A stretch of DNA of 64,000 nucleotides, from assembly GCF_042242105.1 (NCBI RefSeq), contig NC_092019.1, positions 21,938,828 through 22,002,827 of the forward strand, given 5' to 3'. Both the position numbers and the translations under genes were made by a program. The DNA comes from Pempheris klunzingeri (lineage: Eukaryota > Chordata > Actinopteri > Acropomatiformes > Pempheridae). A model generated the notes under the pieces. That model was not told the origin of the DNA. It worked only from the letters and a program-made list of their open reading frames with translations, and made no database searches. Below are positions 6,700 through 52,223 of this stretch, piece after piece; within the stretch, counting starts at the first letter, position 1; each line of letters opens with the position of its first letter.

Positions 6700-7723
6700 C
6701 TTTAGGGGAAATGACAGCTGAAACTCTTCAGCTGAAAGCTTCAAGCACAGGACTTTACCATGTCCCGCATCAGTTTCCCACAGTCAGCAGAGCCCAGCGG
6801 AGCAGAACAACCTCGTAAAGTCTGCAGCAGAGGGGGCAGCAGCTGCACCGCAGGCAACCTTATTTAAAGTGAATAGTGCCACACACTTGTGTTTAGCTCT
6901 CAACTTTTGTCACTGCAACACTTTTTTTCTCAATCTTTCTTTTGTTTTTCACTGAAAGATTGCCCTATAACAGTCAGAGTTCAGTCAGTGTTCCCTTTAA
7001 ACTTGACCCTCATTCTTCTTCACTATGTGGTTCACTGCTACAGATTAATGCTGTTTATTTTAACATTTCAATGCTAACTTTTGTGTAATAGTTCTTTCGA
7101 TTTATTATTTAAAACCTTTGTGTAGAGTCAAAGAAGCAGGTACACAGAGTGACATTTGTCAAAAGCTTTTTTATTGGTTATTTTGTTTTTCATTAAAACA
7201 CATAAATGTTTGTACTCATTAAAAAAAACAAACCCCAAAAAACATTTTTCCCGCGCTTCAGTTGGCACTCATACAAGAGCTGGAGTCAAAGCGTGCTATG
7301 AAATGGAGCAGTATGCATATAGCCCGTTGTTTGGACAGACATATTTCACAGACAAGCCTTAGTAATGCCACAACATTACAGCCATGCCATTTTGTGTTGG
7401 AGCGTGTCACAGTTAAGTCAATCAATTTTGCAAATATGTACATTTTCCCACACATACATTCTTTTATAACTCAAGAGAATACAAATAAGTTATTTTAGCT
7501 TCATATTTCATGTGCCCTGGGTCTGGATTAAGCTCATAACATTGGTTAGTTCCCTCCCTTCTGTTTGATGCTTGTTACTGCACACTAATAAAAGCAGACA
7601 GGCACTAAAAATATATATAACAGGAGCGGAAAAAAAACATACAGTTGAGTGATAAAACCTGATGAAGTTAAATTTCAGAAGCAAAGTGGCCGTACCTGTA
7701 AGGTAGGACAGGAATACCTGAGG
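6700..7723. other. Convergent 3' untranslated regions
   Basis: Tail-to-tail gap between the stop of the first Siglec gene (6699, plus) and the stop of CD22 (7724, minus). Candidate poly(A) signals are ATTAAA at 7192-7197 on the plus strand and AATAAA at 7170-7175 on the minus strand. If both are used the two transcripts overlap or abut. AATAAA at 7587-7592 (+) is a further option that would give a longer antisense overlap. Confidence 0.5.
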
Positions 7724-17609: not shown

Positions 17610-18749
17610 TCACTTCCCCTCCCCAAGAGCAGCAGCCATTATCTTGTCAGCATCAGCCGCCATTTCATCGATGGCGCCGTTTAAGGCTTGCAGCATGGCA
17701 GCGAAGGAGCGGCTGGCAGACTTGGCATGTCTGGGCATCGCCATCTGAACCAGCTTGGATGAAACTGAGTTGAAGTCCTTTTCTGCCGCCTCCAGCCGTT
17801 TTTTCACTCCCCCTTTAGTGACCTCCACTGACAGCACACAAGTCCGCAGCCCTTTAAGTTTTGCGGGTTCCACGCCTCGCTGTCGGGCCAGACGCTCAAT
17901 CGATTCATCGTCCAGGCACAGAGATAATTGTACTTTGGTTAGAATCCGCACTCCTATACTTGAGTCCACCATGGAGGCCACAAGGGGAACAGGGATAGCC
18001 GACACCCCACCAGATAGCGAGGCAGCTGCCCATACCAGTGCTTTGAATGCCTCCTTTTTGTGAGAGATCAGGGTGGGGGTAAGCGCTGGTAGTGCAAAGA
18101 GAAGGGCGTGGGCTCGGATCTCTGGAAGGTCTCTTCCCATGTCATCCAACAGGCCTGGGAAGTCAAACTTTTCAAGGGTGGAGGGTCTTACCAGGTACAC
18201 TTTAGGCTGTGCCACACCCTCTGATTTCAGCACTTCCAGACTAGCTTTCTTCTTTTCTTCCAGGCTCTTTTCTGTGTCTTTTGCCGAAGCTAAGAGAAGA
18301 AAGTACACCGTTTCTCGCTGCACTGACCGGGCCTCCAGGAACACCGTCACACTGTTGGGGTGGGGTGTCTGTTGAAAAGTTATGAAGACGGCGTTGTAGC
18401 GGAGAAACTTATATCTATCCATGTATCCCTCTGGCTGAAACGGAGAGGTGGAGGGTACAGGTGGCAGATCCCACAGGCGAAAGTCAGGGTGCTTAGGGTT
18501 AGGGTAGCCTGCCACTTCCTCCGGGGCTACAGAGGATGGAGACGGAACTGTGCCATCGTCTCCGGGACCGAGCCCACGGAGGGAGTTTATGAAGGTGGCT
18601 TTCTCATCCACACGGTCCCCCAGGACGGCTAAGTTGATCCTGCTGATCAGGAGATCCTCCACTGCATCCTTGACATCTGATAACCTATTGCTCTCCATGG
18701 ACTCTTTGAGGGTGTCAAGGAGGTTTAGGCTTCTGAAAACATCAGCCAT
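17610..18749 (-). CDS. IRG-family quasi-GTPase, IRGQ-like
   Basis: Single coding exon, 379 residues. The start MADVFRSL at 18749 directly follows a good acceptor (tttcacag, ending at 18751), so an in-frame Met upstream at 18836 lies in the intron. The fold matches immunity-related GTPases: an N-terminal helix, a G-domain-like core (INLAVLGD... INSLRGLG, then WDLPPVPS, then KFDFPGLLDDMG) and a helical C-terminal half. The nucleotide-binding motifs are degraded: the P-loop GxxxxGKS reads GDRVDEKA (residues 44-51, with E in place of the second Gly and A in place of Ser), and the DLPG switch motif reads DLPP. It is therefore predicted not to bind or hydrolyse GTP normally, like the quasi-GTPase IRGQ. 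Mammalian IRGQ has been linked to autophagic quality control of MHC class I; a similar role here is only inference. It sits alone between CD22 and the Siglec A-D array. Confidence 0.85.
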   Translation of the reverse strand: MADVFRSLNLLDTLKESMESNRLSDVKDAVEDLLISRINLAVLGDRVDEKATFINSLRGLGPGDDGTVPSPSSVAPEEVAGYPNPKHPDFRLWDLPPVPSTSPFQPEGYMDRYKFLRYNAVFITFQQTPHPNSVTVFLEARSVQRETVYFLLLASAKDTEKSLEEKKKASLEVLKSEGVAQPKVYLVRPSTLEKFDFPGLLDDMGRDLPEIRAHALLFALPALTPTLISHKKEAFKALVWAAASLSGGVSAIPVPLVASMVDSSIGVRILTKVQLSLCLDDESIERLARQRGVEPAKLKGLRTCVLSVEVTKGGVKKRLEAAEKDFNSVSSKLVQMAMPRHAKSASRSFAAMLQALNGAIDEMAADADKIMAAALGEGK

Positions 18750-19021
18750 GTCTGTGAAAAGATAAATACTGCAATTGTTGAATAAAGAATATACCAGAAG
18801 GATCATATAGATACTTAGATGTACATTTGCAAACATAGCATTAAAACTGATCTACTTTACCATATTTGCAAGCGTGACAATAGACATGATGGGATCTAAT
18901 ATCAATAAAAATGAATTAAAGTGGCAGCTTTACAATAGAAACCTTGCACCATACTCCTAAAAAAAAACTCAAAGCAAATTGACCAATTAACCAATGACAT
19001 GGCATTACTCCACACACTCAC

Positions 19022-22176: not shown

Positions 22177-25100
22177 CTAATCCATCACTTCCTTCACATT
22201 GGAATACAGCCCCACATCCTCACCCTCCTTCTCCTCTGCTATGCAAGGTGTTGTCTCTTCACCCTCCCCTACCTTCTCCTCCTCTTCCTCTTTGCCCTCT
22301 CCATCTGGGCTCTCTTCTGCTTTTTCTCTTTTGATTTCAGCGTACTCCGTCTCTGTGGTCTCTTGTGGCGTCCCTGCCTCTGCTTGACTCTTGCTTTTAA
22401 TGAGGGAGAAATCAAGTTTGGAGTACTCCACGTCGGATCTCCCCGCTGCCACGGCTCCTCCTCCCTCGGCCGCCTCTCGGTCGATGGCCTGATCATCTTC
22501 TGCGTGACCGGCGTCTATCTGTCGGGCAAAGTGCAGAAATGGTACGAGTCATTTAACAGCTGCTGCAATACCAAAAACTGGCAATGCTGATTAGATGACC
22601 ACCTGAAATGGCTCATTTCAGAATGAAAAAGCATCGATTCAGATAAAAACTCCTGCACTGCAGTTTAAAACACTGTCGTGTTCAGCACTACCATTAGGTG
22701 TCACAATAGCAAAGAGTCAAATCCTACACACGAGCACTTTAATGTATAGTATGACCAGCTGTGTGAATAAAAGTACCAATGGGTCCTCGTGACTTGTCAC
22801 CATATCCAGAGTCTCAGCCAGGTTTCCATGGGTCCTGTGTTTGTTTCTGAGGAGCAGTGGTTTTAAACGGCAACAAACATTAACATACAAATAACAAGCA
22901 AAGATTATTAATAACACACTTCAACAGACATGCTATACGATTTCATATGTTTTTTCTAGCATCCCTAATGAATTCGAAATTAACACTTAACATGAACAAA
23001 GTCTGGAATTTAGATAAACGTACAATGTCTCAGCAAAAAAAGACAACAAATGAGGTGTGAAGAATAAGAACCTCATAGTTTACCTGTGGCATTTCCTCAC
23101 CAAACAGCAAAAGACTGCAGAAAGAAGAATGCCAACCAAGAATGCAATTAGCATTTCCAGCCGTGTAACAATTCTTAACAATTTCATATTTCCACCTGGA
23201 ATCAAGAGGAACAAGTTGTTTAGAAAAAGAAAAAAGAAAATAGAATAGAATAGTGCATCGTGGATATCCTGTACAGTTTGGATACAGAGAGTGGTCAAAC
23301 TACAAAGGAGATTAGAGAAAAGAACATTTAAAGTGAGCTCTTACCTTCTTCTTCCACGTTTTTAATGGTGAAGTTTGTTTTTGCTTTACCCATGTCATTG
23401 CTGCTGACACACTCAACAACTGTGCCACTGCTGTGGTCCTTCACACTGAGGGTGATGGTGCTGGTGACTGTGTGCTTTGACACAGTGGCAGTGACAGAGT
23501 ACTCAGTGTGGTTCTCCAACAGCGGCCATCTGATGGTGGGTAAAGGAATCCCCTGACTGATGCACACACAGGTCAGGACCTCCGACGTACTTGTGCACCC
23601 AGAGCTGTCTAGGATCTTTGGATGTGCTGCAAAAAAGCAGAATCAAACATCACATGAAGCATTCTGTAAGTTGACAGAGGAGAATATGACAATAATTTTC
23701 CTTTATAAGGAGCCAGTCTACTTACAAGTCACATTCACGTTGACGGACACAGTCAGAGCCATGTCCAGGTGTTCCGCCATACAGATGTACTGTCCACTAT
23801 GTTCTGCTGTTGCATCAGTGATCAGAAGAGTGGTTGTTCCAGTATTTTTCTGCAGGTCGGTGTCAGGTCCACTGTGCGGATGTTTGACTTTTTTCCATAT
23901 TACAATAACTGGAGGGAAACTCTCTAAACTGCAGGTCAGATTAAGAGCATCACCTTCCTGAATAGCTGTAGTCCCAGTGATTTTAAGTTTCTTAACATCT
24001 AGGACGAAATGATACAAAGACGATATGTCAAAACACATATATGCTATGGAATGGTCAGTCAAAGCATGCTGTGACAGACCTCAGCTTCTTTGGGCATAGG
24101 AAGCAAGAGGAAGCACAAAATACTTTAGAAAACTTAAAAAATGCCGATGACTTTCTAGAAAACCCACATGGAGTCCAAAATGATACTACCTCCAACTCCT
24201 CACATATATTTCAGGGTGTGGAAGTTATTCAGGAGGACATTGACAGGCTCATTAAGGTTGTTCTCTGTTTCCCCAGAAGAAGAGGGAGGAAAATACTTCA
24301 GGACATTTTCTGTCTTAGATCATTTGTACAATGTACTCACATATCACTGCTACATCCACTTCCTTCTTCAGGGTGTTGGTCACATGTTTTACTGTGCACA
24401 CGTACAGCCCAGAATCTTCTGCTGCTACGTTAGAGATGGAGAAAGTGGCCGTTCCACTTTGTTCCTGCAGATCACTTAAAGTGTTGTTCTGCAGAAGAGT
24501 TTCTGTTCTATTTTGCAGGTTTCTGTCAGAAGACTTGGTCCATGTGAGAAGAGATGGAGGGAAACTTTCAACACTGCAGCTCAGATTCAGAGTCTCACCC
24601 TCCTTCACACTTGGATTCCCAGTGATATTAATTTTCTTCACATCTATGAGACAAAATAATATACCGTATCAAATACAGTGTTATAGGACAAAAGGTAAAG
24701 GTGAGAGTAAAGTACAGTCTACACTATACTCACAGGTCACATTCAGAGTCATCGTCTCCTCTGTAGTCGTGCTGCCTGTGAAGCCCACCTTACAGGTGAC
24801 CTCAGTGCCGTGGTGTTCAGCTGAAAGGTTAAAGGTCAAAGTTGAGCTGTGTCTCTGTGTGACAGCCGCCACATTGTCAGTCTTGACAGCGGTGATGTTT
24901 CCTGTGATGTGAGAGTCGTTCTCTCCTGCTTTTCTCCACGTCCAGGTGATTTTAGGAGCAGATCCAGAGCAGAGACCAGGAGCAGTGCAGGTCAGGGTGG
25001 TCTGCTGTCCCTCTGTCAGAGGAGGAATCATCACTGTGGGCCTCTGGCTCAGATCTCAGGGGAGAGCAGATATACAGTCGAAGGAATAATTAGGGTGGTG

Positions 25101-26332
25101 CAGTTCTATCGGTGGGATCAAGTAGGCAGGCATGAGTGTTATTATTCAGTTCAAGTACAACTAATCTAGTATTCCACTCTGTTAAACATTTTAGCCAAAC
25201 ATAAGTATCTTAAATAGAAGAGACAGGAAGTAGGAGTCAATGAGGCCAGTGCTGTCGTTCCTGCTGGCTGCCCACAGAGGATGCTAGAGGCCAAACATTA
25301 TTTCATAGCATTTTAAGAGTTCTTTAATTAAGAGAGTCTTTAGGACGTCTTCAGTGAACAAACAGCATCTACATACACCAGGATTCCTCATACCTTTTAC
25401 AGTGACAGTGGCTCTATGAGATGTGAATCCTTCAATTGTTCCATTCAGGCTGGAACCATTAACTCTGAGCTGATACGACCCAGAGTCTGACTTGGTGAGG
25501 CCACTGATGATGATGCTGCAGTTGTTCTGCCTCACGCCAGGCTCCAGCAGAGACACTCGCCCCCCAAACCCAGACTGAGCCTTCTGGTTGGTGTCGTTCA
25601 AGACGAGTATTTCATCAGAATGAGTGCAATTCTGCTTAGGAGGATCACATTTGTACCAAACCGCACTTTCCAAAGTGAAGCCAGGATTGGTAGTAAAATA
25701 ACAAGGTATCACAGCACAGAGTCCAGCCTCTGCTGTTACCTTCGAGCTCTCTCCTGGAGGTGCAGCTGCTGATGCAAACACAATCAGACAATCAGAAACA
25801 TAGATAGATATTGGTAACATATAAAGATCTAATTATTGATGTGGTGGCACTCTTGAAAGGCCGAACAGTATTTGCAGCAGCATGTGACCAATGTACCTGT
25901 TTCCTGTTGCATGAGGCTGTCGTGGTATAAGCTGGTAATGGTGTCAGGTTCCTCTTTCATTAGAACCATCAACATTAAATTAAGCTAAATAATCACTCTT
26001 TAGTTTTACATATTTTCATGAATTTATCTTTGGTATATAAATTGTTAATTAATCCAAAAGGTACTTATTTATGTCAAACAGTAAAGTGTTACGTGACGTG
26101 AGACCTTCAACAAGCTGCTAAGCTAAATTTAAGGGACAAAAACTAAATACCTGCAACCTGTACCTTGTTCAGCGCAACATCTTTAATTTGTAATACTGAA
26201 GACACCCTCAGCAGCTTCAAAATTTTCATTTTGGCGTCATGACAAGATTGTAATAAAGCTGCACACTGTACCTGTTTCCGCATTGCTGCCTCTCACAGCG
26301 AAGAACAAAGATGCCCAGATGTGAACAAACAT
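22177..26332 (-). CDS. Siglec A, inhibitory, five Ig domains
   Basis: Nine coding exons: 26332-26272, 25765-25394, 25054-24734, 24643-24341, 23998-23726, 23626-23345, 23195-23084, 22846-22777 and 22518-22177. The model gives 711 residues: leader ([11 protein letters not shown]), V-set, four C2-set, transmembrane helix (in exon 7) and tail. Siglec marks: [21 protein letters not shown] with the F-strand arginine, and GLCSGS in the first C2 domain. Tail tyrosines Y630 (VEYSKL, ITIM), Y657 (TEYAEI, ITSM-like) and Y703 (LYSNV, ITIM and Grb2-like YxN) sit in an acidic tail. An inhibitory myeloid or B-cell receptor is likely. Its V and membrane exons differ clearly from B-D, but the first two C2 exons and their introns are almost identical to theirs, suggesting gene conversion. 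The V exon acceptor is a tandem CAGCAG (start 25765 or 25768), allowing one optional alanine. Confidence 0.85.
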
Positions 26333-28519: not shown

Positions 28520-31500
28520 TCAGACCTCTGCCATTATTTCTTTCACATTGGAATACACTACCATATCCTCGCTTTCCTCCTCCTCTGCAGACAAACACTC
28601 TTTAGTCTCCTGATCCTCCCCTCTCATCACCTCCTCCTCCTCGTCTTCATTGTCTTGCCTCTCTACGGTTTTTCCTGCCTTAATTTCAGCATACTCTGTC
28701 TCTGTGCTCTCTTTTGTGCCTTCTGCCTCTGTGGGCCTCTTACTTTTCAACATGGAGAAATGAATGTGGGAGTATTCCACCTCTATTGGGTCCACATCAC
28801 CATCGGCGGTCGATGGCCCAGCGGCCCCTGCTCCTCTTTCAGCCGTCTCTTGGTCATGGCTCCTTTCATTTTCCTCTACATGACCAGCAACAACCTGTCA
28901 GGCACAATAAAGGACTGATATGTCATTTGCCAGATGATATAAGCCAGACAACTTTAAGTAACCTAGACATGTATTCTCTCCATTAGTGCCATTTCATAAT
29001 TTCACTGATTACTAACTACAAAAATGACAATAATTGAAAACTTTGCAGGGTTTACTATAAATCATCTATTCCAATCTGCATCTGGTTACTAGACAGTTCC
29101 CTAAGGTTTGAAAATCAGCTTGAAAAGACTTGAGATACTGATAGTACCTGCTTTTACTTTACGGATTAGATTGCTGTGATTGTGATGATGATGCAGTGTG
29201 ATCTTCTCAAATGAGCCTATACTAAGAGCTGCATGACAGCACAACATTGAGAAAGCTCTGACAGTGTTAAAGTGTCTGATTATCATACGGTAGTGAAATG
29301 AAAGAAATGGAAGTGAATGTCCCATCACTGTTTGATAAATAATAACATGATGTGTATAATAATGAAATGATGTAAAATAAATACCAGTTGAACCGCTTCA
29401 GTGGTCACCACCTCCAAAATCTCAGCCGTGTCATCAGAGATATCCTGATTTTTTCTGAGGAAAAAAATGTATTTAATAATAGGAACAAATTTTAGTAAAT
29501 AAACAAGTAATAGACAAGGATTACTGAATCAAAATTACTCTTGAAACAGATTTTTAAAGGGCTGTATCTATGATTTTTTAGCCCACAACTGAAGACAACA
29601 CAATATCATTTTCACCTGTATTTAATCAGATTACTGTGCTATGCTCAGTACTTTGGGGCACTGATAAATGTGTGGGTTTGCACCATTCAGTCTCTAAAAG
29701 TCTCTAAAATACTAAACTGTCAATTTGGTAACATGGAGGACTAAAAATGTGGGAGAACCAAATGGTGACTACAAGATGGCCTCCAGTCACCCTGGTGTGT
29801 GGGTCAGAGGCTGACAAAGGAAAGCCATGTGCTGTAGCTGTTAGCTTAGCTTCGTCTCTCAGTCGAGGCCTATTTGTAACTCAGGCTGCAGGCCTGTAAA
29901 TGGACTCTCTGGGGTTCCTGTGAGATGAGGTGCAGCACTGAACTGGTCTCCAACAGAGCCCAAGGTGAAACATAGCTGGACCCTCAGAGGTCCAGAGGAG
30001 AGGTGTGAGAGAGAGAGCAGTGGGGGATGTCCAGGGAGTGCATGTAGCACATGTGTGACAGTAAAGGACTCTGGGGAAGTGAATTCAGAGAGGGAGGCCT
30101 TTGTTGACAAAGAAACCAATTTGGTGCAGCCCAACATCTGCTAGCCATTTCTTTTATTCATGAACATGCCGACTGGTCTTTCTGTGTGGGGTTTCCATGG
30201 TCTCCCCTGCCGTAAAATGGATGAAGTGTGCTTAAACACTGGGGTGCACCACCACGAGAAAATAATGCCTAATCAATAAAATGCAAAAAAAAAAGAGAGA
30301 GAAAGAAAAGCAATACATGGATCTCAAAAAGAAGCACAGTTATGCAAGGATAACAAAGTGTACCTGTGGCATTTTCTGGCCAGGCAGCAGATGGCCGCTG
30401 ACACAAGTATCCCAGTAAAAAATGAAACAATGACTTCCGGCTGTTGAACAGTTATTAGCAATTTCTTGAGCAGATCTGGAATGAAGAGGATAAAAATTGT
30501 TTAAAAAAATATGCTTTTAAAATGAGGTATTGAAAATGTTATACATCAGCGGTCTAAAGTAGGTGATGTATTTTAGTTGTCTACTTACCCTCTTGATTTA
30601 TTATGACTGTGAGTTTCTCTTTTGCTTCACCCATGTCATTGCTGCTGACACACTCGACCACAGTGCTGCTGTGGTCCTTCACACTGAGGGTGATGGTGCT
30701 GTTGACTGTGTGCTTTGACACAGTGGCAGTGACAGAGTACTCAGTGTGGTTCTCCAACAGCGGCCATCTGATGGTGGGTAAAGGAATCCCCTGACTGATG
30801 CACACACAGGTCAGGACCTCCGACTGAAGCTCACATCCAGACTTATTCAAGATCTTTGGAAACCCTGTAAACACACGAGCAGAATCACAGCAAAATGCAG
30901 ACAGTGTGAAGATCAACTTCCTTTTCAAGACGATTACTACAGTCTCCTTACAAGTCACAGTTACATCAGCAGATGTAGTCACAGCTGTGTCCAGCTGTTT
31001 TGCTGTACAGATGTACCGTCCTGAATGTTCCACCATCACATCAGAGATGATGAGTGTGGCTGATCCAGTGTGGTTCTGCAGGTCAGTGTCGGGTCCACTG
31101 TGCAGCTCGGTGCTGGAACCAAGTTTAGTCCATGTGATATGAGACGGAGGAAAACTTTCAGCACTGCAGGTCAGATTCAGAACGCCTCCCTCCCTCACAG
31201 TTGTATCTCCACTGATTACAGGCGCCCTCATATCTGTGAAGCAGATTTCAAACAAAGTATCTTCACAATGTCACTTGTGATTGTGTTCATACATTGAATG
31301 CCCCATCTATATTCTACCACTGGAGGGCGCAAAAGTCTTTTCAAACCCCAGACAGAGTAAATCATCTCGCTCCAGCGAGGCTGATTTCCATTGAAAACTG
31401 AATCAGATAAAGTTAATTTTATGTTGCATTGCTGAAGCACACTGAGTTTGTTCCATCGGTCTTTGAAGGTGTGGAAGTTATTCAGGAGGACACTGACAGG

Positions 31501-33270
31501 CTCATTAAGGTTGTTTGCTGCTCTAAACGTTGAGTTTCAGTTTCCCCAGAAGAAGAGGGAGGAAAATACTTCAGGACATTTTCTGTCTTAGATCATTTGT
31601 ACAATGTACTTACATATCACTGCTACATCCACTTCCTTCTTCAGGCTGTTGGTCACATGTTTTACTGTGCACACGTACAGCCCAGAATCTTCTGCTGCTA
31701 CGTTAGAGATGGAGAAAGTGGCCGTTCCACTTTGTTCCTGCAGGCCGCTTAAAGTGTCTTTCTGCAGAAGAGTTTCTGTTCTATTTTGCAGGTTTCTGTC
31801 AGAAGACTTAGTCCATGTGAGAAGAGATGGAGGGAAACTTTCAACACTGCAGCTCAGATTCAGAGTCTCACCCTCCTTCACATGTGGATTCCCAGTGATA
31901 TTAATTTCCTTCAAATCTATGAGACAAAATAATATACCGTATCAAATACAGTGTTATAGGACAAAAGGTAAAGGTGAGAGTAAAGTACAGTCTACACTAT
32001 ACTCACAGGTCACATTCAGAGTCACCGTCTCCTCTGTAGTCGTGCTGCCTGTGAAGCCCACCTTACAGGTGACCTCAGTGCCGTGGTGTTCAGCTGAAAG
32101 GTTAAAGGTCAAAGTTGAGCTGTGTCTCTGTGTGACAGCCGCCACATTGTCAGTCTTGACAGCGGTGATGTTTCCTGTGATGTGAGAGTCGTTCTCTCCT
32201 GCTCTTCTCCACGTCCAGGTGATTTTAGGAGCAGATCCAGAGCAGAGACCAGGAGCAGTGCAGGTCAGGGTGGTCTGCTGTCCCTCTGTCAGAGGAGGAA
32301 TCATCACTGTGGGCCTCTGGGTCAGATCTCAGGGGAGAGCAGATATGTTGTTAAACGTTTCAGTGGGGCAATAGGCCTTCTGACAGGAGTCAGGAGTTTG
32401 TTGGTGCAGTTCATAGGTGACACACAAACACATTCACTGTGTATATTTGTTGTAGCTCTTCCTACCTTTAACAGAGACAGCTGTTTTTAGGGAAAATGTA
32501 AATCCATCTTCCAGCTCACTCCATCTGATGCCATTAACTCTGAGCTGATACGACCCAGAGTCTGACTCAGTGAGGTCCTTGATGATGATGCTGCAGGTGT
32601 TCTGCATCACGTCAGGCTCCGGCAGAGACACTCGTCCTTTGAACCCAGACTGAACTTTCTTGTTGTTCTTTTTAGTGTGGAATATTATGTCTGAGTCACC
32701 ACATCTTTGTTTAGATGGTTCACATTTGTACCAAACCATATTTTGGAGTGTAAAGTAATGAGGAGTGCTGAAAGAACAGGGTATCACAACACAGAGTCCA
32801 GCCTCTGCTGTTATCGCTTCTCTAAGAGTGACACAGAATCCAAAAGAACAATCCGTCCTTCCTCCCACTGATGCTCCTGTTAACGAGGCAAACAAAACAG
32901 AGGCTAAAAAACATGGGAATGGTTTAGCAGATGTTTAGATTTTCACATACACCTAAATATCTAATCACAAGATTACCTCTGATAGGTAGCACGTCTGCTG
33001 TTTGACCAGACAACATAACATGATTTCTGTGTTTCAAACCACCTGTTCACTCTCTGGGATATATTGTTACGCAAATCAATTTGGTTAAGCATTTCAGTAA
33101 AACATATAAAGGGGCATTTATTACTGAAAACTATTTCAGGCTACTTGTATATTAGAATTTTATGTGCAAAGTGTCGCCATCAAAACAAGGTTACAATGGA
33201 GATGCATACCTGTGTCCGCATTGCTGCCTCTCACAGAGAACAGCAGAGTTGCCCAGATGAGAACAAGCAT
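28520..33270 (-). CDS. Siglec B, inhibitory, five Ig domains
   Basis: Nine coding exons: 33270-33210, 32876-32466, 32327-32007, 31916-31614, 31233-30952, 30864-30589, 30475-30364, 29454-29385 and 28894-28520. The model gives 736 residues. Leader [15 protein letters not shown], then V-set ([21 protein letters not shown]), four C2-set domains, a transmembrane helix in exon 7 ending CCLARKCHR, and an acidic tail. Tail tyrosines: Y653 (VEYSHI), Y680 (TEYAEI) and Y726 (VVYSNV). The pattern fits an inhibitory Siglec that recruits SH2-domain phosphatases. Ectodomain exons, introns, leader and about 3 kb of upstream flank are nearly identical to Siglec D, whose membrane and tail exons are unrelated. 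B and D would thus show almost the same surface with opposite signalling. Confidence 0.87.
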
Positions 33271-36073: not shown

Positions 36074-39000
36074 TCATATCTCACCCATTATATCCTTCAC
36101 ATTGGAGTACACCGCCTCTTCCTCCCCTTCCTCTTCCTCTGGGACACAATGTTTTGTCTCCTCCTCCCCCCCCATCATCGCCTCCTCCTCCTCTTCCTCC
36201 TCCTCCTCCTCCTCCTCTTTGTCGTCCATCACTTCACCTTCTTCTTCGCCATTGTCTTCAATTTCCTCTTTTACTCCTTTCTTAATCTCAGCGTACTCCG
36301 TCTCTGTGGCCTCTTGTTTCTTCGCCGCCTCGCTTGGTGTCTTTCTTTTCAACACGGTGAAATCAATGCTGGCGTATTCCACGTCTTTTGGTCCATCAGC
36401 AAGATCAGGGGCGGCTTCCTCCGCTGCCACAGCTTCATCTCCTTCAGCTGCGTCTTGGCAGTAGGTCTGATCGTCTTCCACTGCTTGACCAGCGTCAATC
36501 TGTCAGGTACAATGTAAAAGATGCTTCTCATTCAGCAGCTGCTACAAGCACTAAAATGATGAACAATATGCACGAAATCTATCAGGTATACTTACATGAC
36601 TGGTGAACATATATTTCAAGTCATATGACACTTTTGTATTTATTTCTTTTAAATGCTCTGGTATTGTTAAATAACATTTGCAAGACTTGAAACTTGACAG
36701 ATGTCGTAATTCATCACATGCCTGCTTTTATCATGAATGTGGGAATGAAATGAGATCAACCTGTGTGTAATGTTGTCAGACACTTTGAATGACAATATAA
36801 GTCTATCAGACTTGGGAACAAAAAGCACTTTAGTGTACGTACTTTGATCAGGTGCAATTTCCCCAAAGGATTACAATACAACCATTACAGCCTGTTCTTG
36901 GCATTTCAGGTCATTTCGACCCCCAAAATGTGTGAAAATACAGCCCAGGCTTAAAAATACCGACGTTATCCTTTAAAGCAGGCATCAAGCTGGGCTTTGA
37001 TAGAATATACAGCGTCTCAAGTGTCAACCTCCTGCAAGCTGATTTAGCAGTTAGTTCAGTCCAAGCACAGATGTTGTGCTTGCTTGAGTCGACTGTCAAC
37101 GGCTGCATCATTCATGCTTCATTGCCAGTGGCTCATTCATCAGCTGCTGGGCTACGAGCTGACCAGTCGCATCCAATCACATTTGTGCAGGTTGACAAGG
37201 CAGCCAGTCTGACACTTCTAACTATTACTCTGCTGATGATGACTCCTCCTTGTTTGCTGTATTTTTGGTATTGGTGAATTCAGTAAAATGTCCATGTATG
37301 TGTTTGTTAAAGGGAGAGTATTTCTCCTTGTTGCTGCACAGATTCTTTGTTCCCTGGAAGAGCAGACTCTTTTCTGCCTGATCCAGCTGTGCATCCATTT
37401 TCTATTTACAGTCAGTTCCTTGAGTACGGTGTTTCTGACTGAAACGTAATACTATGAAAGCTACATTCACACATCTAAAATACTACATGATATATTGGGG
37501 ACAGTTCTAAACAAAAGCGTTGTACAACTGTTTTTACCAGTACAGCATATATAACATTAGCTAAATAGACTTAAATACCAGTGCTCTGGTATCCTCTTGA
37601 CTGGTCACCATCTCCAGAGGCTCATCCAGATTTCCTGAGCTTTTCTGTTTTTTCCTGAAAAAAGGAAAACAAGACAAGACATTTGAACAACCATACAATC
37701 ACATTTATCTATGAAGATTGTCCAGGAATTGATTATTGGATTAATTACTGTACCTGTGGCATTTTTTAGCCAAACAACAAAGGACTGCTGAAAGAAGAGC
37801 CCCAATAAAAAAGGCAATGATGACTTCCCATCGTGAAACCATATTCATTACTTCTCTGGAGTGATCTGGTATCAAGAAGAAGCAACGAAAAGATGTTTAT
37901 GCCCATGTCACTTATGCAGTAGCTTTCTTTTGACAGCTTGCACAACGGTTGTCTAAGTACAAAGATCACAGTAAAATAAAAAATGCAGTACAAAAGATGT
38001 CATAAAGCAGTGGTCTACAGTAGAAGAAGTGCTGTAGCTGAGAAGATGTACCCTTTTGTTGTGGCATTTTTATCTGGATGGTGAGGTTTTCTTTTGCTTC
38101 TCCTATGTCATTGCTGCTGACACACTCGACCACAGTGCTGCTGTGGTCCTTCACACTGAGGGTGATGGTGCTGTTGACTGTGTGCTTTGACACAGTGGCA
38201 GTGACAGAGTACTCAGTGTGGTTCTCCAACAGCGGCCATCTGATGGTGGGTAAAGGAATCCCCTGACTGATGCACACACAGGTCAGGACCTCCGACTGAA
38301 GCTCACATCCAGACTTATTCAAGATCTTTGGAAACCCTGTAAACACACGAGCAGAATCACAGCAAAATGCAGACAATGTGAAGATCAACTTCCTTTTCAA
38401 GACGATTACTACAGTCTCCTTACAAGCCAGAGTTACATCAGCAGATGTAGTCACAGCTGTGTCCAGCTGTTTTGCTGTACAGATGTACCGTCCTGAATGT
38501 TCCACCATCACATCAGAGATGATGAGTGTGGCTGATCCAGTGTGGTTCTGCAGGTCAGTGTCGGGTCCACTGTGCAGCTCGGTGCTGGAACCAAGTTTAG
38601 TCCATGTGATATGAGACGGAGGAAAACTTTCAGCACTGCAGGTCAGATTCAGAACGCCTCCCTCCCTCACAGTTGTATCTCCACTGATTACAGGCGCCCT
38701 CATATCTGTGAAGCAGATTTTAAACAAAGTATCTTCGCAATGTGACTTGTGATTGTGTTCATACATTGAATGCCCCATCTATATTCTACCACTGGAGGGC
38801 GCAAAAGTCTTTTCAAACCCCAGACAGAGTAAATCATCTCGCTCCAGCGAGGCTGATTTCCATTGAAAACTGAATCAGATAAAGTTAATTTTATGTTACA
38901 TTGCTGAAGCACACTGAGTTTGTTCCATCGGTCTTTGAAGGTGTGGAAGTTATTCAGGAGGACACTGACAGGCTCATTAAGGTTGTTTGCTGCTCTAAAC

Positions 39001-40641
39001 GTTGAGTTTCAGTTTCCCCAGAAGAAGAGGGAGGAAAATACTTCAGGACATTTTCTGTCTTAGATCATTTGTACAATGTACTTACATATCACTGCTACAT
39101 CCACTTCCTTCTTCAGGGTGTTGGTCACATGTTTTACTGTGCACACGTACAGCCCAGAATCTTCTGCTGCTACGTTAGAGATGGAGAAAGTGGCCGTTCC
39201 ACTTTGTTCCTGCAGGTCACTTAAAGTGTTGTTCTGCAGAAGAGTTTCTGTTCTATTTTGCAGGTTTCTGTCAGAAGACTTAGTCCATGTGAGAAGAGAT
39301 GGAGGGAAACTTTCAACACTGCAGCTCAGATTCAGAGTCTCACCCTCCTTCACATGTGGATTCCCAGTGATATTAATTTCCTTCACATCTATGAGACAAA
39401 ATAATATACCGTATCAAATACAGTGTTATAGGACAAAAGGTAAAGGTGAGAGTAAAGTACAGTCTACACTATACTCACAGGTCACATTCAGAGTCATCGT
39501 CTCCTCTGTAGTCGTGCTGCCTGTGAAGCCCACCTTACAGGTGACCTCAGTGCCGTGGTGTTCAGCTGAAAGGTTAAAGGTCAAAGTTGAGCTGTGTCTC
39601 TGTGTGACAGCCGCCACATTGTCAGTCTTGACAGCGGTGATGTTTCCTGTGATGTGAGAGTCGTTCTCTCCTGCTCTTCTCCACGTCCAGGTGATTTTAG
39701 GAGCAGATCCAGAGCAGAGACCAGGAGCAGTGCAGGTCAGGGTGGTCTGCTGTTCCTCTGTCAGAGGAGGAATCATCACTGTGGGCCTCTGGGTCAGATC
39801 TCAGGGGAGAGCAGATATGTTGTTAAACGTTTCAGTGGGGCAATAGGCCTTCTGACAGGAGTCAGGAGTTTGTTGGTGCAGTTCATAGGTGACACACAAA
39901 CACATTCACTGTGTATATTTGTTGTAGCTCTTCCTACCTTTAACAGAGACAGCTGTTTTTAGGGAAAATGTAAATCCATCTTCCTGCTCACTCCATCTGA
40001 TGCCATTAACTCTGAGCTGATACGACCCAGAGTCTGACTCAGTGAGGTCCTTGATGATGATGCTGCAGGTGTTCTGCGTCACGTCAGGCTCCAGCAGAGA
40101 CACTCGTCCTTTGAACCCAGACTGAACTTTCTTGTTGTTCTTGTTAGTGTGGAATATTATGTCTGAGTCACCACATCTTTGTTTAGATGGTTCACATTTG
40201 TACCAAACCATATTTTGGGGTGTAAAGTAACGAGGAGTGCTGAAAGAACAGGGTATCACAACACAGAGTCCAGCCTCTGCTGTTATCGCTTCTCTAAGAG
40301 TGACACAGAATCCAGCAAAACAATCCGTCCTTCCTCCCACTGATGCTCCTGTTAACGACACAGTGAAACAAACATAAGGGGTATTTCAATTTTTAACAAA
40401 ACACCATATTTAATAAAATGATTAAGAAAGCCCGCTACTCCTGATGGATAATAAACCGTTTTCGTTTTCTGTAACTGCTGTTGTCATCAGTGGCAACCAC
40501 AAAGCACTCATCATGAAAAATGAATAACTGTTTTGTTCACATCTTTAATGATGGCATTGAGAGGTAATAAAGATGCATACCTGTGTCAGCACTGCTGCCT
40601 CTCACAGAGAACAGCAGAGTTGCCCAGATGAGAACAAACAT
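36074..40641 (-). CDS. Siglec C, inhibitory, five Ig domains
   Basis: Nine coding exons: 40641-40581, 40348-39938, 39799-39479, 39388-39086, 38705-38424, 38336-38052, 37865-37754, 37654-37579 and 36499-36074. The model gives 758 residues. Leader [16 protein letters not shown]-set with [16 protein letters not shown] and SYQLR, four C2-set domains, a transmembrane helix in exon 7 ending CCLAKKCHR, and a long acidic tail. Tail tyrosines: Y659 (VEYASI, ITIM), Y686 (TEYAEI, ITSM-like) and Y748 (AVYSNV, ITIM-like with YxN); Y630 (QTYCQD) matches no motif. The near-identity with B and D runs from the middle of the last Ig exon (about 38082) to the start of the V exon (about 40359), almost exactly the ectodomain; leader flank and tail are more diverged. 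Confidence 0.87.
36176..36222 (-). repeat. In-frame GAG/GAA triplet run coding poly-Glu
   Basis: CTC/TTC triplets on the plus strand encode a run of 12 glutamates in the Siglec C tail, between the TEYAEI and VYSNV motifs. A and B have shorter acidic runs at the same place. Confidence 0.9.
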
Positions 40642-45115: not shown

Positions 45116-45121
45116 TTTATT
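45116..45121 (-). terminator. Candidate poly(A) signal of Siglec D
   Basis: AATAAA on the minus strand about 345 bases after the Siglec D stop codon at 45463. Use is unproven. Confidence 0.4.
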
Positions 45122-45462: not shown

Positions 45463-48400
45463 TTAGTTCAGATTCTGGCCAATAACATCGTACTCTGCTG
45501 ATGGCTCAGTTTTCTGCAATGACATGTAAGTTCTGTCCTCCAGGTTTGGTGTCACCTTTTTTCTTGTGTTCCTTTGAAGAGAAGAGAGAGCGAGACATGA
45601 TGTGTAAAAGTCCCCACTGCACCGAGAGTGCCTTTGAAGATGTATTGATATAAGTGCAGAGACAATAACTTTTTTGGAAAAGCAACTTTTTGAAAAACTG
45701 ACACTTAAGAAAAGGAACTTCAAAAGCAACTTACTGTAACTTAAAAAAAAAATATCTTTGGGAAAAGTTAGTTAAAAAAGTAAAGAAGTACAGTTGGAAT
45801 GATAGGATAAAGCCTGTGAGATAATGACCTCAGTGGGGACCCCAGTCGGTAGGTTGAGGGTTAAAGCATCAAATGATGACATAGTAACTTACCAAAGGAC
45901 CATCATGCAGACAGCATTCACAGTGAGGGATACGGCAGCGACAGCCCAGGGAAGCGCTGCACTTAGTCCATGTTGATCTGCTGTTAGAATGCTGTTAGTA
46001 GATTGTAAAAGTATTCAAGTGCTATGTTTAGGATGTGTCAGCTATCCTCATTTACTCCGTTATTTATACCTATAGCTAGATGACAAAAAAATATTTACAT
46101 CTCACATGACTTTTTTATTATATACGATATACTATATTTATATAGTATTCAAATGATCTTTTTATGAATGCATTTTTGTTAAGCTGCTGTTAAATACACC
46201 CAATACTTCCTGCAAAGTTTCAATGGAAAAGCCTTCCAGAGAGGAGAGGGTATTTTGCCACAGAACTCCTTAAAGACTATTCATATGTGTGTTTCATGTT
46301 TACAGTGTTCATTGACATCAAGCCACAGCAAATCAACAAAAGTAGTCTAACTGAGGCAGAGGAATTTAGATGAAATGCTTTTGTCTAATATCAGCTTCTC
46401 TCAAAAACTGCAATGTTTATTGTCAGTTTGACTATGTGTGGTAAACTCTAGCTGTGATGGCTGTGGTTGTAGACCAACCCTGGAGTATTCTAAACATGGT
46501 GTCAGCCATAGGTTTCTGATGGATTGTCATAAAGGGAAATTGTTTGCTGTGCTATCTTTGTCAGATACCACAACCAAGAAAGAAACGGATTGGGGCAAAG
46601 AGGGTCAAACCTGAGCTGAGGAATTATGAACATATGGAAACCACCAAGGCTGAGTGTGACTGGGTGAAACACCAGCCAACAGACCTGCTGAATGTACACT
46701 TTGAAAAGGCCAGGCAACTGTTAAAGAAAATGATTGTTATGTGTGTGTGTTCACCTTCTTGCATCTCTGAAGCTATGATGGTGATGCTCTGTTGAACACC
46801 CCCCATGTCATTGCTGCTGACACACTCAACCACAGTGCTGCTGTGGTCCTTCACACTGAGGGTGATGGTGCTGTTGACTGTGTGCTTTGACACAGTGGCA
46901 GTGACAGAGTACTCAGTGTGGTTCTCCAACAGCGGCCATCTGATGGTGGGTAAAGGAATCCCCTGACTGATGCACACACAGGTCAGGACCTCCGACTGAA
47001 GCTCACATCCAGACTTATTCAAGATCTTTGGAAACCCTGTAAACACACGAGCAGAATCACAGCAAAATGCAGACAGTGTGAAGATCAACTTCCTTTTCAA
47101 GACGATTACTACTGTCTCCTTACAAGTCACAGTTACATCAGCAGATGTAGTCACAGCTGTGTCCAGCTGTTTTGCTGTACAGATGTACCGTCCTGAATGT
47201 TCCACCATCACATCAGAGATGATGAGTGTGGCTGATCCAGTGTGCAGCTCGGTGCTGAAACCAAGTTTAGTCCATGTGATATGAGACGGAGGAAAACTTT
47301 CAGCACTGCAGGTCAGATTCAGAACGCCTCCCTCCCTCACAGTTGTACCTCCACTGATTACAGGCACCCTCATATCTGTGAAGCAGATTTTAAACAAAGT
47401 AACTTCACAATGTGACTTGTGATTGTGTTCATACATTGAATGCCCCATCTATATTCTACCACTGGAGGGCGCAAAAGTCTTTTCAAACCCCAGACAGAGT
47501 AAATCATCTCGCTCCAGCGAGGCTGATTTCCATTGAAAACTGAATCAGATAAAGTTAATTTTATGTTACATTGCTGAAGCACACTGAGTTTGTTCCATCG
47601 GTCTTTGAAGGTGTGGAAGTTATTCAGGAGGACATTGACAGGCTCATTAAGGTTGTTTGCTGCTCTAAACGTTGAGTTTCAGTTTCCCCAGAAGAAGAGG
47701 GAGGAAAATACTTCAGGACATTTTCTGTCTTAGATCATTTGTACAATGTACTCACATATCACTGCTACATCCACTTCCTTCTTCAGGGTGTTGTTCACAT
47801 GTTTTACTGTGCACACGTACAGCCCAGAATCTTCTGCTGCTACGTTAGAGATGGAGAAAGTGGCCGTTCCACTTTGTTCCTGCAGGTCACTTAAAGTGTC
47901 GTTCTGCAGAAGAGTTTCTGTTCTATTTTGCAGGTTTCTGTCAGAAGACTTAGTCCATGTGAGAAGAGATGGAGGGAAACTTTCAACACTGCAGCTCAGA
48001 TTCAGAGTCTCACCCTCCTTCACACTTGGATTCCCAGTGATATTAATTTCCTTCAAATCTATGAGACAAAATAATATACCGTATCAAATACAGTGTTATA
48101 GGACAAAAGGTAAAGGTGAGAGTAAAGTACAGTCTACACTATACTCACAGGTCACATTCAGAGTCACCGTCTCCTCTGTAGTCGTGTTGCCTGTGAAGCC
48201 CACCTTACAGGTGACCTCAGTGCCGTGGTGTTCAGCTGAAAGGTTAAAGGTCAAAGTTGAGCTGTGTTTCTGTGTGACAGCCGCCACATTGTCAGTCTTG
48301 ACAGCGGTGATGTTTCCTGTGATGTGAGAGTCGTTCTCTCCTGCTCTTCTCCACGTCCAGGTGATTTTAGGAGCAGATCCAGAGCAGAGACCAGGAGCAG

Positions 48401-49412
48401 TGCAGGTCAGGGTGGTCTGCTGTCCCTCTGTCAGAGGAGGAATCATCACTGTGGGCCTCTGGGTCAGATCTCAGGGGAGAGCAGATATGTTGTTAAACGT
48501 TTCAGTGGGGCAATAGGCCTTCTGACAGGAGTCAGGAGTTTGTTGGTGCAGTTCATAGGTGACACACAAACACATTCACTGTGTATATTTGTTGTAGCTC
48601 TTCCTACCTTTAACAGAGACAGCTGTTTTTAGGGAAAATGTAAATCCATCTTCCTGCTCACTCCATCTGATGTCATTAACTCTGAGCTGATACGACCCAG
48701 AGTCTGACTCAGTGAGGTCCTTGATGATGATGCTGCAGGTGTTCTGCGTCACGTCAGGCTCCAGCAGAGACACTCGTCCTTTGAACCCAGACTGAACTTT
48801 CTTGTTGTTCTTTTTAGTGTGGAATATTATGTCTGAGTCACCACATCTTTGTTTAGATGGTTCACATTTGTACCAAACCATATTTTGGAGTATAAAGTAA
48901 GGAGGAGTGCTGAAAGAACAGGGTATCACAACACAGAGTCCAGCCTCTGCTGTTATCGCTTCTCTAAGAGTGACACAGAATCCAAAAGAACAGACCGTCC
49001 TTCCTCCCACTGATGCTCCTGTTAACGAGGCAAACAAAACAGAGGCTAAAAAACATGGGAATGGTTTAGCAGATGTTTAGATTTTCACATACACCTAAAT
49101 ATCTAATCACAAGATTACCTCAGATAGGTAGCACGTCTGCTGTTTGACCAGACAACATAACATGATTTCTGTGTTTCAAACCACCTGTTCACTCTCTGGG
49201 ATATATTGTTACGCAAATCAATTTGGTTAAGCATTTCAGTAAAACATATAAAGGGGCATTTATTACTGAAAACTATTTCAGGCTACTTGTATATTAGAAT
49301 TTTATGTGCAAAGTGTCGCCATCAAAACAAGGTTACAATGGAGATGGATACCTGTGTCCGCATTGCTGCCTCTCACAGAGAACAGCAGAGTTGCCCAGAT
49401 GAGAACAAGCAT
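45463..49412 (-). CDS. Siglec D, activating type with an ITAM tail
   Basis: Eight coding exons: 49412-49352, 49018-48608, 48469-48149, 48058-47756, 47375-47124, 47036-46755, 45977-45893 and 45571-45463. The model gives 607 residues. Leader [16 protein letters not shown]-set ([21 protein letters not shown] with R133), four C2-set domains, an uncharged transmembrane helix ([20 protein letters not shown]) and a 36-residue tail. The tail holds Y587 and Y599 in DRTYMSL, eight residues, YDVI, which fits the ITAM consensus D/ExxYxxL/I-x(6-12)-YxxL/I. There is no ITIM of the A-C type. It should signal through Syk-type kinases in cis without a charged-residue adaptor partner; this is inference from the motif. 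The third C2 exon has a 30-base in-frame deletion relative to B and C. The transmembrane exon acceptor is a tandem CAGCAG (45977 or 45980). Linking the last two exons to this gene rests on phase, order and strand. Confidence 0.82.
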
Positions 49413-49716
49413 CCTGACTAGATGATGGAAAGTCAGCGTCTCCCTCCACAGGATGAACTTTTCCTGTCAGAAACACATCTTACACATTGAGCTGACCAGA
49501 GTCACCTCCTCGGCCGACAGCACAGATTTAAATACAAGCTGATTCACCAAGTTCACCTGTGTAGTCACATGAATACGAAACATCTTCTTCAGGGCTATGA
49601 GCCCCCCGAAATGTTTCATCTGTTCAGGACTGCTGCTAGATAAATTATCTGCAGCTAAAACAGCTCAGAAATAGATCATCTCTACACACACACACACAGT
49701 AAATGTTGTGCTTTAC

Positions 49717-49802
49717 CTCTTTGTGTCTTGTTCTCCAGCTCTCTTCTCTCCTCAGTGATCTGTGCTGAATCTCTCTGATCTGATCTGATCTGACTTGTCT
49801 TC
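49717..49802 (-). promoter_or_regulatory. Untranslated first exon region of Siglec D
   Basis: Nearly identical to the Siglec B counterpart at 33575-33660, donor GTAAAGC. If both are promoters, B and D should be expressed in much the same cells. Confidence 0.5.
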
Positions 49803-50805
49803 CTCTTTTTGTTCTTCTTCCTTCTTCGTTAACAAGTTTCCAGGAAGTTTCTGCTGCCTCTCCAGACTGCCACCTTTAGAGCTACAGTCTGCTAATATCA
49901 CACGTGTATTTGATATACCGAGTTGGGAATGTGCAACTTTGAATGATAAAATGAAAAAAGTCTTGAACGCTTTTTTAAATCCTATAATGACTGTGAGAAA
50001 CTATGGCAAAGGGAAAATGCAGTATATGTGCAGTTTCCACCCACCAACAATCTTTCTGCTTTGTAATGCATAACACAATATGTATATATACCAGTCAATA
50101 ATAACGGTCATTAAAAAGTAATTAATTTCATCATTAGTTTATTCATGTGTAAAAAGACAGCTCCGGTTGGATTCATCGTAGTTGTTCATTTCAACTTCGT
50201 GGTTTTGGAGAGAACTTTTGCATTTGTAAATGAATGGTTTTATGGTTTCATTGTGTATTGTACAACACTCAGACAAGTTACTCAAATGCTCATTCATTTA
50301 AACATTGCCTTATATGACATTGCTGTATTCTCAGATAATTTCCTAGGTGCTAGATTACAACTATTTCTGTCTTCATCACTGACGATACGTCGGCATGTTA
50401 AACGCTCACTATAGAACTTGTCAACGCTGCAGAATGTACCGGACGTAAGAAAGGCGTTGTTGTTAGCGACAGCTCAAGAGTTTCACCCCAAAACTAAAGT
50501 GTGTTTTTGGTCAGACTGACCACATTAAAAAGGGAAGTAATCCATGACTTGTTCAACAAGAAAACTGTTACAACTGCTACAACAAAACTAAAAAACAGCA
50601 CTCTGATCTGCAATTTACAATTCTTCATATTTTATATCAGAATAAATTCAAAACAGTTTTAAGAGGAACTGAAGAGATCCCATCCTACTGCAGTTCCACT
50701 GTGAGAGAAATCTACAGTCCTTGTTCTGCAGTGATGCATCTCAATAATCAGTCAGCGCCAATGTGAGGTTTCAGCAGTGTGAGTTAGACAACTGCAAATG
50801 ACCAA

Positions 50806-52223
50806 GAGCGCTACTGTGTTGGAGTTCTCCCACGATGAACGAGAGGGCCACCTTCATGCGACTACGGGTTGCTGGGGGGGACTCCATAGTTCTACTGGGA
50901 GACTTCAACGGGTGATTGGAATGAACGGCATGCCAGTGTGGTGCTTTGTTATTGGACTTCTGTACTAAGCATGGATTGACCATAACAAACACCATGTTCA
51001 AGCATAGGGTGGTTCGTAAGTGTACATGGTACCAGACCACCTTAGGCCAAAGATCTATGATTGATTTTGTGGTCGTGTCATCGGATCTGCACCTGTATGT
51101 CTTGGACACTTGGATGAAGAGAGGTGCAGAGCTGTCAACTGATCACCACCTGGTGGTGAGTTGGATCAGATGGCGGGGGAAGCTGCCAGACAGACCTGGT
51201 AGGGCCAAACGTGTAGTGAGGGTTTGCTGGGAATGTCTGGTGGAGGCCCCTGTCCAGGAGATCTTCGACTTGGATTCAAGAGAAACAATACGGATTCCGT
51301 CCTGGTCGTGGAACAGTTGACCAGCTCTTTACCCTTGCGGGATTGTTGGAGGTGTCATGGAAGTTTGCCCATCCAGTATACATGTGTTTTGTAGACTTGG
51401 AGAAGGCCAATGATCGTGTCCCTTGGCAAATCCTGTGGGGAGTACTGCAGGAGTATGGAGTACCAGGTTCGTTGCTACAAGCTATTTGGTCTCTGTATAA
51501 CCAAAGTGAGAGCTGTGTCCACATTCTCGGCACAAAGTCAAGCACGTTCTCAGTGGGTGTTGGACTCCGATAAGGCTACCCATTAACAGTGATCCTGTTC
51601 GTGATTTTCAAGGACAGGATCTCAAGGTGCAGCCGAGGTTTGGAGACCTCAGAACTGCATCTCTGCTTTTTGCAGATGATGTGGTTCTGTTGGTTTCCTC
51701 AGATTGTGAGTTGCGTGTGGCATCAGCAGTAATGCAGGCACTATACCGGTCCATTGCAGTGAAGAGGGAGCTGAGCTGGAAGGCAAAGTTCAACATTTTG
51801 ATCTACGTTCCAACCCTCAACTATGGTCATGAGCTCTGAGTAATGACCGAAAGAACGAGATTACTACAAGCGGCTTAAATAAATTTCCTCCGTAGGAGCT
51901 CAGACATCCAGGAGGGGCTCGGAGTAGAACCACTGCTCCTTCACATCGAAAGAAGCTAGTTGAGGTGGTTCAGGCATCTGGTCAGGATGCCTCCTGGGTG
52001 CCTCCCCTTAGAGGTTTTCCGGGTACTTGCTGGAGGGATTACATCTATCATCTGGCCTGGGAATGCCTCGGGATCCCCCAGGAGGAGCTGGAAAGCGTTG
52101 CTTGGGAGAAAGGCGTCCAGAGTGCCCTGCTTGACCTGTTGCTACCGCAACCCGAACCCAAATAAGTGGAAGATAATGGATGGATGGATGGATGGATGGA
52201 TGGATGGATGGATGGATGGATGG
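50806..52223 (+). mobile_element. Decayed Rex3-like LINE (RTE clade), 5'-truncated
   Basis: Fragments of an endonuclease domain (VLLGDFN near 50895; MIDFVVVSSDLHLY near 51057) and of a reverse transcriptase (YGFRPGRGTVDQLF near 51290; LFADDVVLL near 51667) appear in order on the plus strand but in several frames, with material missing between them. The 3' end reaches a (tgga)n tail, as described for Rex3. About 1.4 kb remains of an element normally near 3 kb, so it is dead. Homology of the flanks to 34690 and 35140 shows it arrived after, or was lost from one copy of, the B/D duplication. Confidence 0.8.
52177..52223 (+). repeat. (TGGA)n tail of the LINE
   Basis: Near-perfect tetranucleotide tract forming the 3' terminus of the Rex3-like fragment. 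Confidence 0.95.

Follow-up and report, generated by a model that had tools for sequence, protein, structure and literature searches.

The window analysed here is a stretch of 64,000 nucleotides of Pempheris klunzingeri (NC_092019.1, positions 21,938,828 to 22,002,827 of the forward strand), situated on contig C8 of the genome that was searched (646 Mb, 439 contigs). Read along the minus strand from its far end, the window carries MAG, four genes termed Siglec D, C, B and A, an interferon-inducible GTPase gene and a CD22-like gene, an order that places four tandem Siglecs between MAG and the CD22-like gene. The subject of this work is Siglec D (49412-45463, minus strand), the ectodomain of which is nearly identical to those of B and C, and the cytoplasmic tail of which contains a motif of the immunoreceptor tyrosine-based activation motif (ITAM) type.

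The Siglec D gene is intact, its eight-exon model encoding 607 residues with one stop codon, at the end; every intron has GT-AG borders, and the exons are entered in phases 1-1-1-1-1-1-2. On the minus strand, exon 1 (49352-49412) encodes a signal peptide of 20 residues and equals exon 1 of Siglec B at 61 of 61 bases. The V-set domain is encoded by exon 2 (48608-49018), which matches the Pfam models V-set and Ig_CD22, has CD33 as its closest solved structure and includes the conserved Siglec arginine, located by alignment at R112 of the exon translation (SYQLRV). Exon 3 (48149-48469) encodes the first C2-type immunoglobulin (Ig) domain, with its start, DLTQRP, aligned with DLTHRP of CD33, followed by exon 4 (47756-48058; Ig domain 3, from the gene model and Pfam), exon 5 (47124-47375; Ig domain 4) and exon 6 (46755-47036; Ig domain 5). 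Compared with B and C, exon 5 is shorter by 30 bases (10 residues), an in-frame loss private to D, and exon 6 is near-identical to the siblings until base 46802 and D-specific thereafter. The transmembrane helix is encoded by exon 7 (45893-45977), and the cytoplasmic tail, with the ITAM-type motif and the stop codon, by exon 8 (45463-45571).

The preliminary description had assigned to Siglec D a transmembrane exon and a tail different from those of its siblings, and the gene model bears this out, as exons 46755-47036, 45893-45977 and 45463-45571 are connected by GT-AG joins with fitting entry phases of 1, 1 and 2. A TACTAAC motif lies shortly before the acceptor of the helix exon; this acceptor is of the NAGNAG type, so that 45980 is an alternative start adding one residue, and the acceptor of the tail exon has a pyrimidine-rich stretch. 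A candidate poly(A) signal, AATAAA, lies at 45116-45121 (minus strand), approximately 340 bases past the stop codon, the number of AATAAA occurrences in the locus being no higher than expected by chance (6 against a mean of 3.96).

The tail of Siglec D comprises 35 residues and presents YMSL, eight residues and YDVI, with an Asp at position -3 of the first Tyr, exactly as initially read. A stretch of 19 residues matches the published ITAM definition, (D/E)xxYxx(L/I)x6-8Yxx(L/I) (PMC2832619; published sources are cited throughout from partial texts), thus confirming, at the level of a prediction from sequence, the proposal of a canonical ITAM in cis. The helix was correctly described as uncharged, its best 21-residue segment containing no D, E, K, R or H. 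In activating mammalian paired Siglecs, signalling relies on a basic residue in the helix and on DAP12 (PMC13233462, PMC6288428), and the contrast drawn with them in the preliminary description is therefore founded on published work. The positively charged helix residue, hallmark of DAP12-coupled activating Siglecs, is missing from D, and the DAP12 route is accordingly unexpected for a helix without charge; the best reading of the sequence is that Siglec D would signal through its ITAM in cis, with no need of DAP12.

The motif is uncommon by chance. When the 35 tail residues were shuffled 200,000 times, Yxx[LI]x6-12Yxx[LI] appeared in 0.25% of the shuffles and the acidic form with x6-8 spacing in 0.02%. 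A second chance test operated on DNA, the 5755 bases 3' of Siglec D exon 6 being dinucleotide-shuffled 1000 times and scored for a helix exon bounded by acceptable splice sites and then for an in-phase terminal motif exon. The two occurred together in 2 of 1000 shuffles, and in none of 1000 when the acidic residue was included; taken singly, the helix exon turned up in 92 of the 1000 shuffles and the terminal ITAM exon in 147. Across the window, the 1293 stop-to-stop frames of at least 30 residues gave 11 matches to the loose motif, with the acidic form in two of the matching frames: the Siglec D tail and a frame at 15727 (plus strand), on the opposite strand of the V exon of the CD22-like gene.

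The assignment of D to the Siglecs is supported by domain models and solved structures. Pfam recognised V-set, Ig_CD22, C2-set_2 and further Ig models among its domains, and the V-C2 unit matched CD33 best (E 2.6e-25), followed by Siglec-8 and Siglec-5; the E values for MAG and CD22 were 2.7e-11 and 6.1e-10. The ranking considered the best 60 of 104 matched PDB sequences, and the best 17 of the 104 were CD33, Siglec-5, Siglec-8, Siglec-10, MAG, CD22 and sialoadhesin, antibody light chains coming next. Siglec A likewise matched CD33 best, the margin being wide for both D and A, while the local MAG matched MAG and the CD22-like gene matched CD22. To judge by these best hits, Siglec D may be a CD33-related Siglec. 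The V-domain arginine, largely responsible for the binding of sialic acid by Siglecs (PMC13233462), is invariant in all eight V domains aligned (one more V domain of the genome, L017, was left out on account of stop codons at the coordinates used), and R112 of Siglec D aligns with the arginine of GSYFFR in CD33. A genome search with the V domain of D (E up to 0.01) returned eight places, namely D, B, C, A, MAG and three at 13.3 Mb of contig C8.

The siblings were described beforehand as inhibitory on account of VEYxx[IL], TEYAEI and [LV]YSNV motifs, all of which are present; the inhibitory label is less firm for C than for the other two. A strict immunoreceptor tyrosine-based inhibition motif (ITIM) was defined as [ILVS]xYxx[LV] and a switch motif (ITSM) as TxYxx[VI]. 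Siglec B (28520-33270, minus strand; 9 exons, 736 residues) and Siglec C (36074-40641, minus strand; 9 exons, 758 residues) are complete, intact models. Siglec A (22177-26332, minus strand), the V domain of which shares 58% identity with its D counterpart, was assembled only from the Ig 2 exon on, its joined translation being out of frame until the membrane exon. The strict ITIM occurs once in A (VEYSKL), once in B (VVYSNV) and nowhere in C, since VEYSHI of B and VEYASI of C end in Ile and qualify as relaxed ITIMs only. TEYAEI is an ITSM in all three, and the remaining motif is LYSNV in A and VYSNV in C. The cytoplasmic part of B and C, unlike that of D, is built from a helix exon, a short linker exon and a long tail exon, and the tail of A is of the same kind. 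On these motifs, A and B are most likely inhibitory sensors of sialylated surfaces, and C probably so too. In the tail of C (36074-36499, minus strand), 12 consecutive glutamates also stand between the motifs TEYAEI and VYSNV; the longest glutamate runs in the tails of A and B number 5 and 4.

Alternative tails for D and donors of its own tail were sought in the window and in the genome. A hidden ITIM tail was rejected, as tblastn with the C tail gave no significant match between D and C. In the window, this query found the tails of A, B and C and, more weakly, those of a plus-strand Siglec-like gene (E 0.13) and MAG (E 0.24), besides chance matches; in the genome, it found the A, B and C places only, so that these searches revealed no second tail of that kind for D. 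Leftover ITAM exons in the introns of A-C were looked for in the window with the tail, the helix and the 3' end of D, and none was found. A donor gene elsewhere was rejected too, because genome protein searches with the tail, for which exon 8 was the sole place, and with a query joining the last Ig strand to the helix returned D alone, in searches where few candidates passed the first stage and distant donors may be missed.

The preliminary description stated that the ectodomain of D is nearly identical to those of B and C, which holds for the V domain at 95% (B) and 94% (C), with the refinement that the similarity ends at base 46802, inside exon 6 and short of the exon border. Siglecs D and B are 97.8% identical over an alignment of 4056 columns that includes introns and upstream DNA. 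The alike block (46802-50807, minus strand) spans about 1.4 kb of upstream DNA, exons 1-5, most of exon 6, the last Ig exon, and introns 1-5. In bins of 250 bases, identity was 94.7-100% within the block and fell from 100% (46851-47100) to 60% and then to 45-54% beyond it. The block that D has in common with C is shorter (49028-46802, 97.3%), the upstream DNA and intron 1 of C being different; in the upstream part, D and B are closer to each other than either is to C. The approximately 1.4 kb of upstream DNA common to B and D suggests that the two genes may be co-expressed.

Introns 2-5 are as alike as the exons, which indicates that the likeness is recent, and exons 2-6 of B and C with introns 2-5 are about 98-100% identical. 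Beyond exon 6, B and C show only 43-68% DNA identity in bins, despite the related tails encoded there. Siglec A is a mosaic: its exon 3, intron 3 and exon 4 reach 96-100% identity between a diverged exon 2 (76-78%) and a diverged exon 5 (71-74%), and a 198-base part of its exon 6 is 97% identical. Such a patchwork, in which a young block is joined to several old 3' ends, points to gene conversion, which best explains the mosaic structure of Siglecs A-D, and the D-B block at 46802-50807 is read as recently converted.

In the V exons (48608-49018 of D, 32466-32876 of B and 39938-40348 of C) and the exons after them, differences were compared between nonsynonymous and neutral sites and were more numerous per site in the former, the neutral sites comprising synonymous sites and introns (introns 1-5 for D-B, introns 2-5 for the other pairs). 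The counts were 18/1208 nonsynonymous against 12/1402 neutral for D-B (p = 0.14), 26/1208 against 9/1068 for D-C (p = 0.016) and 21/1231 against 7/1075 for B-C (p = 0.022), the three comparisons being non-independent tests. With synonymous sites alone as the neutral class, p rose to 0.44 (D-B), 0.12 (D-C) and 0.13 (B-C). There is thus only a hint of diversifying selection on the ectodomain after conversion.

At the level of sequence, Siglecs D, B and C have what characterises paired receptors, namely near-identical ectodomains, opposing types of signalling motif and neighbouring genes. Siglec D is therefore probably the activating member of a paired set, with an ITAM in its own tail and an ectodomain whose ligands would be common to B and C. 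According to the proposed mechanism, a sialylated ligand would cluster Siglec D, a Src-family kinase would phosphorylate YMSL and YDVI, and the tandem SH2 domains of SYK would dock on the tail, leading to phagocytosis or inflammation. Siglecs B and C, engaged by the same ligand, would oppose D by way of SH2 phosphatases recruited to their ITIM- and ITSM-type motifs. We infer from the sequence the splicing of the predicted gene in vivo, the co-expression of the receptors, ligand binding and the recruitment of SYK and phosphatases. Through repeated gene conversion, the sensing halves of B, C and D would stay similar and the signalling half would remain separate. With V domains in B and C so close to the one in D (95% and 94% identity), a pathogen would have difficulty engaging either without also encountering D, so that one imitating host sialic acid in order to bind B or C would trigger D as well; this rationale is proposed by analogy with mammalian pairs (PMC6288428).

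Some observations weigh against this interpretation. Even at E values up to 10, Pfam assigns no family to the 38-residue end of Siglec D, meaning that the ITAM model PF02189 does not recognise the motif. A genome scan with PF02189 gave two sub-threshold places, neither of them at D, and called none of the 14 control genomes; a scan with NCBIfam gave no match, as was to be expected from a library of prokaryotic families. An inhibitory role also appears less certain for Siglec C than for A and B, because its tail has no strict ITIM and offers only the relaxed motif and the ITSM.

Siglec D might instead serve in endocytosis or clearance, with YMSL and YDVI acting as Yxx-hydrophobic sorting signals for the uptake of sialylated cargo without SYK signalling. 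Both fit Yxx(L/M/V/I/F), given as an endocytic ITAM-like motif in PMC2832619, but the spacing of eight residues and the acidic residue at -3 match the stricter ITAM definition and are needed by neither sorting signal, which makes this role quite unlikely. A different origin would be that D is a tandem duplicate of B whose 3' end was replaced, without continuing conversion, and whose activating role is incidental or decaying. This would accommodate the closeness of D and B over 4 kb, upstream DNA included, where C stands apart from both. However, the 3' parts of B and C drop in identity as well next to their almost identical exons and introns, the patchwork of A and the several old 3' ends on a young block fit conversion better, and the frame of D is intact; we regard a simple duplication as unlikely.

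Exons 7 and 8 might also go unused by D, its transcript ending elsewhere as a soluble form or with an unseen tail, or the assembly might have misjoined pieces of different genes. The two exons are predicted from the sequence, and near-identical neighbours can mislead an assembler. Against unused exons stand the phase, the splice sites and the DNA shuffle test, which favour exons 7-8, and the C-tail searches, which gave no additional tail of that family. As for a misjoin, a swap of arms between B and D would still link the ITAM to a nearly identical ectodomain, and a misassembled chimera as the source of D is thus argued against, though not disproved. Taken together, unused exons or a misjoin seem improbable. 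The reading of Siglec D as the activating, cis-ITAM partner of B and C can be set against known receptor systems.

Like the Siglec D set, the mammalian pairs Siglec-5/14 and Siglec-11/16 have near-identical ectodomains and opposite signalling, and Siglec-11/16 has likewise been homogenised by conversion: in SIGLEC11/SIGLEC16, the similar region takes in upstream DNA and the first eight exons and is attributed to gene conversion (PMC5701461; also PMC6288428). Unlike the Siglec-14/16-type partners, with their basic helix residue and DAP12, Siglec D combines an uncharged helix with an ITAM of its own. CEACAM1/CEACAM3 and other ITAM CEACAMs resemble the D set in that ITIM partners and partners with an ITAM or ITAM-like motif in cis have been kept similar through gene conversion (PMC2832619); however, they are not Siglecs, and in the mammalian CEACAM motif a phase-0 intron interrupts the YxxL, while a single exon encodes the ITAM of D. 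Among fishes, the NILTs of salmonids and carp (PMC3022915) and the zebrafish CEACAMs (PMC3628338) are also Ig receptors with an ITAM or ITIM in cis, but they have other ectodomains, and the Siglec V-C2 unit is undescribed for them in the texts available. Teleost Siglec1, CD22, MAG and Siglec15 are fish Siglecs as well, and MAG and a CD22-like gene flank the D cluster.

In the available text of PMC7226832, fish are described as being without inhibitory CD33-related Siglecs, and the sole mention of an ITAM concerns DAP10/DAP12; if the best hits are right, the CD33-type siblings found here would contradict that view. Tilapia Siglec7 and Siglec14-like, also fish Siglecs, are named in print (PMC12837193), so that a prior description is possible. 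No Siglec whose own tail bears an ITAM appeared in the titles and abstract openings of the best-matching papers in the literature searched, subscription papers being mostly outside it. The preliminary description called a fish Siglec pair with built-in ITAM signalling a distinct solution, which stands for Siglecs, to which the arrangement is new, but not for the kind of solution, already known from the cis-ITAM twins of CEACAMs and the cis-ITAM NILTs of fish.

We incline slightly towards the view that ray-finned fish, independently of mammals, arrived at a DAP12-free ITAM Siglec that is the gene-converted mirror of inhibitory CD33-type siblings, and hence at a second origin of Siglec pairing, at the MAG-CD22 locus. 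If true, the activating twin of an inhibitory receptor, an answer to sialic-acid mimicry, would have been built twice with different wiring, and Siglec D would provide fish immunology with a single-chain activating Siglec to test. A conversion tract that stops inside one Ig exon would moreover be a natural experiment parting the sensing from the signalling half.

The remaining genes of the window are identified as follows. The local MAG matched MAG structures over its V and C2 domains (E 7.5e-72), and its tail frame contains a strict ITIM, LNYAAL; such a motif has been described for teleost and not for mammalian MAG (PMC7226832). Between D and MAG, at 50925-52165 (plus strand), reverse-transcriptase-like open frames are present, judged by eye to be a relic of a long interspersed nuclear element. 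The CD22-like gene matched Pfam Ig_CD22 (E 1.3e-40), and both of its PDB matches were CD22 (best E 1e-9). The GTPase gene between Siglec A and the CD22-like gene is of the IIGP/IRG type and consists of a single long open frame (17610-18851, minus strand; Pfam IIGP E 8.6e-36). The plus-strand Siglec-like gene (1354-6699) has LHYANV and TEYAEI in its tail and MAG as its best solved match (E 1e-10).

Elsewhere on contig C8, the Siglec-like genes at 13.31-13.33 Mb and 10 kb on each side of the window were searched for ITAM tails; many of the loose-motif matches fell within simple repeats, and by eye none was convincing as a receptor tail. Two short Siglec-like genes, each with V, C2 and helix, lie at about 13.316-13.321 Mb (L018:4861-7071 and 7295-9516). 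They are inverted copies, 96.4% identical over 2230 columns and 223 bases apart, and their V frames retain the arginine of FCFR; a third V domain is located at 13.326 Mb.

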